Source: Bolinopsis microptera (lineage: Eukaryota; Ctenophora; Tentaculata; Lobata; Bolinopsidae). From it: a DNA stretch of 60,000 nt. The notes under the pieces are model-generated. The model saw nothing but the letters and a program-made list of their open reading frames with translations. It had not been told where the DNA came from and did not search any database. Shown here one piece after another: positions 41,001-52,705 of this stretch. How positions within the stretch are numbered: position 1 is the stretch's first letter; every line of letters begins with the position of its first letter. The translations under genes were made by a program, and so were the position numbers. Where the stretch lies: contig NC_087081.1 in assembly GCF_026151205.1 (NCBI RefSeq), positions 16,673,053 through 16,733,052 of the forward strand. The letters run 5' to 3'.

Positions 41001-44000
41001 TACACTGATTGGTAGGATAGCACGGAATTCCAATCATTAAGATGACCCAGTCACGAAAATCACCTGCTTCTTGATGTATCACCCTAAATTGATTGAAATT
41101 TAATACTGTATAGGAAGGTATACAGTATACAGTATTATACAGGAAGTTCTGAATTATCCGTACCTCAAATCGTTTCTTAGCACCACCCTTTCCAGAGATA
41201 AGGTTAGGAAGCTTGATCCGTGGCTGAGTGACATAGTCTGGCAGCGAGTTCTCTAGTTCCAGTAAGCCTGCAAAATTACTTGTTAGATAAGCGACAGCAA
41301 GGGGGATTCTCCTGATTGTTATTATCTGTCACGTGTGACTTTAAAGTTACCATTATTACGATATAGTAGTTCGCCACAGACCGCCTACATGTACAGTTTA
41401 CTGATCCATGTTCTAATTTGGTGATGATTATGTCATCAATCAAAAAGGAAATTGTAATCCAAATGGAACGTTCATTAAAAATTCTAAAAAGTCTCCAAGA
41501 GATGACGTACCCTCGTATGTGTTGAGATATCTATTCTTCACATTGTAAAGCTCAGATCCTCTATCCAGAAATACTCCGACACGAGTTTGTGGAGCATAGA
41601 CCTGCGCAGGATACAAGGTAAACACAATATCACGTGACGTCATTATGATATCACGTGACGTCATCATTATACTGCACAGGATATAAGGTGAGACCAAGAC
41701 AAACCATTGTTGTGTATAGTAGTAGTAGTATCACTTGTCATTTAGAAATAACTTTACTATTCCTCATGGTGTGAATTATGGAAACCGTTTATACAGAAAA
41801 TCAACTCTCACCTAATTCACGAAATTCTATCATTTCTATCAAGGAGGAAATAACAATGTTTAAGTTTGATTGTCTGTACTGTATACGTGTAGCTCGTACC
41901 TGAGAAGCGAAAGAGGAATAGTCAGACACAACATTTCTTCGAGAAAGTTTACCCTCGACCTTTTCCCTCTCCGAAGCTAGCTTTCTGAGGGCCTTGATGT
42001 TCTCCGTTCTCATCTTCTTGAATTTCGCATCCTTAGCCACCTGCTTTTTAGACCTGTAACAAATATAAAGCTAACAAATATTCTGATCAAATGATTAATT
42101 GATTATGTGCTTGAATGATTATATTAGGCTATAATCGATACTCCAATAATTTCATGGGATATATAAATATGTACTACCTCGACACTGAAGCATGGAACTT
42201 AAAAGATAACAAACATGAATTAGTAATACACCAAATGCCCGAACCAGAAAAGTGTTCTCACCAAATAGCATTGAGTCGTTCAGTGTTTGTGCCGTTATTA
42301 TCTTCCTCACGTTTCTCTAAAATCTGCTTTAAAACCTGTATAAAAATAATAGAGAAGGTAAGACAGCAGTTTATCTACTTAATACTGAATTTCTCATTTA
42401 GTCCCTCAACCCCCGGTCTCTTGCCACGCCCTTCAACCTCCGGTCTCTAGTTACGATCCTCAACCCCCGGCCTCTAACCACGCCCCTCAACCCCCGGTCT
42501 CTAACCACGCCCCTCAACCTCCGGTCTCTAGCCACGCCCATCAACCCCCGGTCTCTTACCACGCCTCTCAACCCCCGGTCTCTAACCACGCCCCTCAACC
42601 CCCGGTCTCTAGTTACGCCCCTCACCCACCTGTAATCTGACTTGCTGAAGTTTCTCAATTTCCCTCTCCCTAATGACCCACTCCTTTCTCTCCAGCTCCT
42701 CCATCATTGCTCTACGTTTAGATAGTTGAGATACGTCGTCAACTGGAGGAAGCGTCTTCTCCCTAACAGATAAAGTGAGAGTGAAAGTAAGGACTCAAAG
42801 TGACGTCATGTAAAATAGGAAGATCAGTGTTTGTCGTACGGCGACCAAATAGCTAACAAATGTTACTGTTTACTGTTTACTGTTTAGCTCCTTAGCAATG
42901 AAATTATAGGATTTATACAGTTTGGGATGGTTCACATGAAGAACTAACTGTTTCTTCTAAATTAAAAACGAGAAATGACCATTATATTGCCTATTATATA
43001 AGGAGCAGATAAGACCTTTAAATTAAAACTGCAAGAAAACAACCCAATACATTTTTGTGCCAAATAAAACAGTGCAGTCCGACCACGAGTTATCCAATAT
43101 AAATACTTAAATGACTTTCTTATATAAATTTTGGAGTTAAACCCATTTTATCAAAGTTATATTTAGCAAAAGGTAAGTTAAGTAGTTTTACGTAAAATAA
43201 ACAATACTACGTAACCAAGTCTTGCGAACTAGCAAATAAGATAGCACAAATGTTCAGAGTACTCATGTAGTGATCTAAATGATAACTTTAGTCCTAAAAT
43301 TTCAGATAAACGACTGACTAATATAGTAGACAAGGAACAAGGTACGTATTATTGGCTATTAAGTGATCACGTGACTACTTATGAAATATTGGTTTCTATA
43401 GAGATAGGAAGTTTAGTCAAGTCCATCAGTACGATAGTGCACTTATACCAGGAAACTCGTTATAGTCTATCGTAATCATTACAATGAGAAACAGCGACCT
43501 CATCATTTGTAGGTCGAACACCGATGTTTGGTTGCGATAGTTTTATCAGTTTTAGAAGATAAGTTCATTTGGAAAATTTGCAGACTAATGAGAATATTTC
43601 AACAGTTTTCAAGTTCAGAGGTGAGAATCTATCAAGAAAATAAGAATTGGTGGAAATGAAATACGTACCAGGCTCGTTTCTCCCTCGCTCTCTCAATCAT
43701 CTCCACCTCCGCAAGTCCCGCAGGAAGACCTCGTGTATACGAGAGTGAAGCTAAAGTCAGCAGTTCCGGAACTGTACCTTTCTCCGTAACATATTCCGGT
43801 GTGTACGGTTCTGCGGGTCACGTGATATCAGATTAGTTCCTTCCTCAAAGTAAGTCGTTCATTGTTCATTAATTGAAACAAAGTTTTCATAATTTAAATT
43901 AGCTCTTGTTAATTAGGGTCAATAAGATGATAACTGTCATGCAAAGAAAAGAGTAATTTCTTAATCCTGTGATAAAGAACAGAACTAACCAGTCTGTGCC

Positions 44001-52705: not shown

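Follow-up and report, generated by a model that had tools for sequence, protein, structure and literature searches.

Organisation of the CFAP91 locus

The DNA analysed here is a 60,000-nt stretch of the Bolinopsis microptera genome (NC_087081.1, positions 16,673,053 to 16,733,052), referred to below as the window; its scaffold is called C10. The minus strand of the window carries a gene for the cilia protein CFAP91, and a minisatellite of 143 units of 50 bp extends across the end of one of its coding exons and through most of the following intron. Twelve CFAP91 exons were located, each with a counterpart in a second copy of the gene on the same scaffold. They carry the provisional labels E3 to E14; no exons upstream of E3 were found, and the name "exon 4", given to the exon at the array in a first-pass annotation of the window, was likewise provisional. 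The features are as follows (window positions; a slash marks a splice junction).

39026..51827, minus strand: twelve CFAP91 exons, E3 to E14
51089..51283, minus strand: CFAP91 exon, 195 nt if its acceptor is ...gtgtcag/GAGG (start inferred from the reading frame and the AG)
51089-51116, minus strand: 28 nt at the end of that exon, which form the exonic portion of unit 1
51083..51091, minus strand: authentic 5' splice site CTG/GTTAGT, with the intron starting at 51088
43811..51088, minus strand: intron of 7278 nt, made up of 7121 nt of array and 157 nt of unique sequence
43968..51116, minus strand: 50-bp minisatellite, 143 units (repeat finder, motif count and unit-by-unit comparison)
43811..43967, minus strand: rest of the intron, 157 nt of unique sequence including the acceptor CCCGCAG
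43669..43810, minus strand: next CFAP91 exon, 142 nt (EPYTPEYV...REKRAW)

Tandem Repeats Finder (TRF) placed the array at 43968-51116 with a period of 50, 143.0 copies and 99% matches, and the core motif occurred 143 times at up to three mismatches, against 0.03 occurrences expected from shuffled sequences. When compared unit by unit, 142 of the 143 measured 50 nt and the remaining one 49 nt. Read on the minus strand, each unit joins 28 nt of exon end to 22 nt of intron start, and the CTG/GTTAGT donor is intact in 143/143. The array of about 143 copies and the unit anatomy described in the first-pass annotation were thereby confirmed, with two corrections. That annotation placed all 143 copies in the intron; 143 is the total, unit 1 being the authentic exon end and donor, and only the remaining 142 occupy the intron. 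The donors are identical, as claimed, but their surroundings are not: 29/143 units deviate somewhere from the consensus, which 114/143 match exactly, and 18 distinct types are present. In 12/143 units, TAC has become TAG through a C-to-G change; inside the array, units can tolerate mutations that in the exon itself would create nonsense codons. Judged by eye, the variants cluster at the CAG of a pseudo-acceptor inside the unit, which may reflect mutation bias rather than selection against that acceptor.

The joined translation of the two exons flanking the intron matched the CFAP91 chains of PDB structures (best E 4.5e-37), and the junction EAQT/EPYT was crossed without a gap in all three alignments shown, in agreement with the gene assignment made earlier.

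A smaller array lies elsewhere in the same gene (42403-42624, minus strand), with about eight 27-bp units in the intron after the exon that ends near 42630. Its units start only a few bases from a different CFAP91 donor, number about five by eye in the second gene copy, and appear to be a degenerate version of the same kind of array. Of 46 hits to a gene neighbouring CFAP91, the four with an organism's name all come from Mnemiopsis leidyi, with 67% identity for the best of these, and the top hit overall is 95% identical.

A second CFAP91 copy with a shorter array

The second CFAP91 copy is found about 180 kb away on C10 in the same orientation, and it carries an array at the same place and in the same phase (C10:16897583-16901324; 75.0 units by TRF). 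The corresponding introns measure 7278 nt in the window copy and 3871 nt in the second copy. The array consensus is identical in the two, and the intron remainder is 157 nt in both, with six differences. Since place, phase and remainder agree, the array is by parsimony older than the split between the copies. In the second copy, the donor is intact in 74/75 units (73/74 in the array, plus the exon unit).

A search of the 264.65-Mb genome with a 70-nt query returned 218 matches, equal to 143 + 75, and those listed all fell at the two C10 loci, which indicates that the array arose locally from the CFAP91 exon. A dispersed repeat or transposon as the source of the unit was rejected on this total and on the places of the listed matches.

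The coding sequences of the two copies were compared over 519 codons, a count made without codons near exon ends, among them the tail of E7 and the opening codon of E8 (outside the exons). There were 17 synonymous and 0 nonsynonymous differences, and the synonymous divergence (dS) was 0.051. The absence of nonsynonymous change shows that the array has not destroyed CFAP91; because both proteins have stayed under selection, splicing has to be adequate with either 75 or 143 units. The earlier claim that choosing the first donor is essential for the protein thus gains indirect support from two gene copies that differ in array length.

Within the arrays, 35 differences were counted in 142 units of 50 nt in the window copy (0.5%) and 23 in 72 units in the second copy (0.6%), whereas nine intron pieces differed between the copies by 2.7-8.2% in substitutions. 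This is the pattern of concerted evolution among units, although polishing of the assembly may have added part of the uniformity. The exon unit of the second copy deviates from the consensus at two sites, a synonymous AGG to CGG change and an intronic C to A change, and both changes are also present in intronic units of both arrays. These shared variants suggest that sequence may have been exchanged between the coding exon end and the intronic copies; recurrent mutation is also possible, the sites being few.

Alleles or duplication

A stretch of about 65 kb surrounding the window copy aligns collinearly with the segment that holds the second copy, C10:16888803-16934306, with identities of about 80-98% and many length differences. 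Two further features are relevant here.

32054..60000: part of the window within the collinear segment
C10:16769958-16770057, outside the window: gap of 100 N

The collinearity continues to 182 nt before the contig end at this gap, about 37 kb past the window. The gap and the second copy are separated by about 119 kb (C10:16770058-16888803), from which three sampled pieces each matched multiple places in the genome; one of them has multi-kb copies of 96-99% identity, both on other chromosomes and at further sites on C10.

The simplest reading is that the second locus is probably the other allele, a retained haplotig with a large repeat-rich insertion on its left side. A true segmental duplication, giving two CFAP91 genes and two arrays per haploid genome, is a less probable but serious alternative. 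It would account for two copies that share a scaffold and an orientation, lie about 180 kb from each other and have different left flanks. The window piece tested to the left of the segment, 20000-27000, lacks a long second copy; besides many repeats, it has just one 1.1-kb match of 97% identity, about 106 kb upstream, and so gives no sign of a general allelic partner on that side. An RNA polymerase family was found at three loci, which shows that doubling does not extend through the whole assembly. Three loci are expected for this family, corresponding to Pol I, II and III. Against duplication, the homology breaks off 182 nt short of where the contig ends in a 100-N gap, a pattern shown by retained haplotigs, identity differs from block to block along the collinear segment, and the family search found CFAP91 at these two loci only. 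The three multi-matching pieces to the left of the second copy allow the difference on that side to be explained by an allelic insertion of repeats. Five pieces from around the copies, used as queries against the genome, matched repeats and local duplicates for the most part, and none brought up a long allelic partner. According to the assembly description, the genome consists of 13 chromosome-scale scaffolds, with an estimated size of 254 Mb, from which haplotigs were removed by a program, and its annotation drew on Iso-Seq data (PMC10232365); such removal can leave some haplotigs behind. If the copies are alleles, 143 versus 75 units is a length difference between haplotypes.

The same collinear segment shows another length difference outside the window: at C10:16742414-16753969, on the side of the window copy, there are two large arrays (291 units of 25 bp and 95 units of 41 bp), and the corresponding stretch of the second copy spans just 65 bp or so.

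Products of alternative splice choices

The first-pass annotation stated that reading past the first donor meets a stop at once, and the computed products bear this out: donors 2, 3 and 143 each give ...EAQTG followed by an in-frame TAG. Pseudo-exon cassettes were computed with a putative acceptor, the CAG that follows a pyrimidine-rich stretch within each unit; cassettes of 20, 70, 120 and 170 nt all ran into stops. Skipping the 142-nt next exon would shift the frame.

Relationship to known exon-boundary repeats

In amphioxus, minisatellites at exon boundaries whose extra splice sites are unused, termed mirages, are reported to leave regular splicing undisturbed (PMC3087553, PMC3902484). The genes concerned are Adh3 and the globins BflGb6 and BflGb9, with TnC and PGBD5 as cited (PMC3087553, PMC3902484), and the PGBD5 paper makes the same statement of Adh and TnC (PMC3902484). 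The CFAP91 array shares the traits of a mirage: its unit spans the exon-intron boundary, the authentic boundary is the end copy, and the extra units carry splice signals. The two differ in scale and setting, since BflGb6 haplotypes hold 6 and 3 units, as described, and the CFAP91 copies 143 and 75, in a cilia gene of a ctenophore. Somatic length instability is a described trait of the Adh3 mirage.

The human ABCA7 intron 18 variable number tandem repeat (VNTR) has a 25-bp unit that includes the exon 18 donor and numbers about 12-427 units; retention of one unit, that is, use of donor 2, makes up 2 +/- 1% of transcripts and is out of frame (PMC5954066). Like the CFAP91 array, this VNTR adjoins an exon, includes the donor and can reach hundreds of copies. 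The ABCA7 unit, as reported, begins at the GT and lacks the end of exon 18, whereas 28 of the 50 nt of the CFAP91 unit are coding exon, so that in CFAP91 exon and array can exchange sequence.

Repeat units of the human IFI6 minisatellite reportedly supply several splice donors, an observation that is said to go back to Turri in 1995. The IFI6 (6-16, G1P3) repeat units are described as splice donors (PMC4526556), and isoforms reportedly arise from the use of two repeat donors further downstream; in CFAP91, by contrast, each computed later donor leads to a stop. In the potato RNA-dependent RNA polymerase gene, an intron was gained by tandem duplication of splice-site DNA (PMC4974935). The likeness lies in tandem duplication over an intron-exon boundary, but the potato gene, on that account, acquired a new intron, whereas in CFAP91 an existing intron grew and no new one was seen: the protein around the array lines up with its relatives over a single ordinary junction, without insertion or loss there.

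A literature search on mirages, minisatellites and splicing in ctenophores yielded two papers on cephalochordate genes, and ctenophores are mentioned in neither. A view of the locus as a splicing puzzle without precedent is not supported, because the amphioxus mirages (PMC3087553, PMC3902484) and the human ABCA7 VNTR (PMC5954066) precede it.

Interpretation of the array

We consider it likely that the array is a mirage-type minisatellite across the CFAP91 exon end, silent under first-donor use. A 50-bp stretch over the exon end and its donor would have been duplicated in tandem and then expanded, probably by unequal exchange. The extra copies all lie downstream of the first donor, and a duplication of this kind is silent as long as that donor is used, since the copies are then removed as intron. 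The likeliest reason for its choice is exon definition from the upstream acceptor, with which the first donor would pair over an exon of normal size. The other 142 donors would then be decoys, little used, perhaps with a few percent of splicing at donor 2.

Several observations weigh against this explanation. The authentic donor is weak, with a calculated U1 duplex energy of -5.2 kcal/mol, and it is weaker than 11 of the 12 other native donor rows of CFAP91 (11 introns, one entered in both versions), the one exception being at -4.2. A second GT in each unit (AGA/GTGAGG) scores better, at -6.4. A weak donor accompanied by a stronger GT in the unit implies that the true donor is not chosen for its strength. 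Experiments with duplicated donors often show a preference for the intron-proximal one, which predicts use of the last copy. In ABCA7, longer arrays accompany more skipping of the next exon, exon 19, which rises 3.2-fold between the smallest and the largest diploid combinations of VNTR lengths (PMC5954066). By this comparison, a 7-kb array may not be harmless. The array could accordingly be a length-dependent and partly harmful modifier of splicing, longer alleles giving more skipping of the next exon or more use of donor 2, and less CFAP91. The frameshift that skipping would cause and the existence of two lengths, 143 and 75 units, fit such a modifier. The coding regions, free of nonsynonymous differences over 519 codons, and the amphioxus mirages, reported without disturbance of splicing (PMC3087553, PMC3902484), argue against it, and we hold it to be rather unlikely.

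A role for the decoy donors has also been weighed against the mirage-type explanation. Selection might keep them as U1 sites that guard a long intron from premature cleavage, or to produce poison transcripts that set the CFAP91 level. The donors are indeed intact in 143/143 units of the window copy and 74/75 of the second, and their nine positions hold 1 of 27 substitution types in both arrays, where 4.9 would be expected (P ~0.03, a weak and uncorrected value from variant types listed by hand); in the window array the count is 0/18 (P 0.03) and in the second 1/12 (P 0.34). Homogenised arrays can, however, keep any site intact by chance, and a long intron needs protection mainly because the array itself lengthens it; we find selection for the decoys improbable. 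Only marginally more credit is given to the related idea that the exon end is a working member of the minisatellite, overwritten by and donating to the intronic copies, whose donors are kept because the 142 decoys have a role. If this were true, that role would be U1 occupancy along the 7-kb intron or dose control through poison transcripts, and the splicing and coding sequence of CFAP91 would co-evolve with the satellite. Least probable of all is an assembly artefact in the array or its length, a doubt that the first-pass annotation had itself raised. The assembly was made by wtdbg from PacBio reads with short-read polishing (PMC10232365), and these can distort repeat number and smooth out differences between units. 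The array is present at two loci with largely different variants, only two non-consensus unit types being common to both, and no N lies inside or next to it, so an artefact is very doubtful. Artefact by block copying was rejected, neither array having a repeated block with at least two variant units.

Other repeats in the window

A 12-bp array (TAACTGCCACAC, x191) occupies 590-2882 and a 6-bp array (TGTCCC, x146) occupies 28144-29017; in both, several frames are open by composition alone. Positions 4774-6898 and 17595-19662 form a 2.1-kb duplicate, about 13 kb apart and 91% identical, which contains two open frames (405 and 507 aa) related to each other.

Significance

Repeats at exon boundaries are a published kind of element; what is new here is the length of the array, its ctenophore host, and a coding exon end that lies inside a homogenising array. 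The locus offers a natural experiment on how a spliceosome settles on a single 5' splice site when over 100 identical ones lie in near-identical local context. Exon definition predicts use of the first donor, and a pure rule of intron proximity predicts use of the last. If the copies with 75 and 143 units are alleles, an allele-specific test would be possible within one animal. With a ctenophore as host, minisatellites at exon boundaries are not a peculiarity of lancelets and humans.
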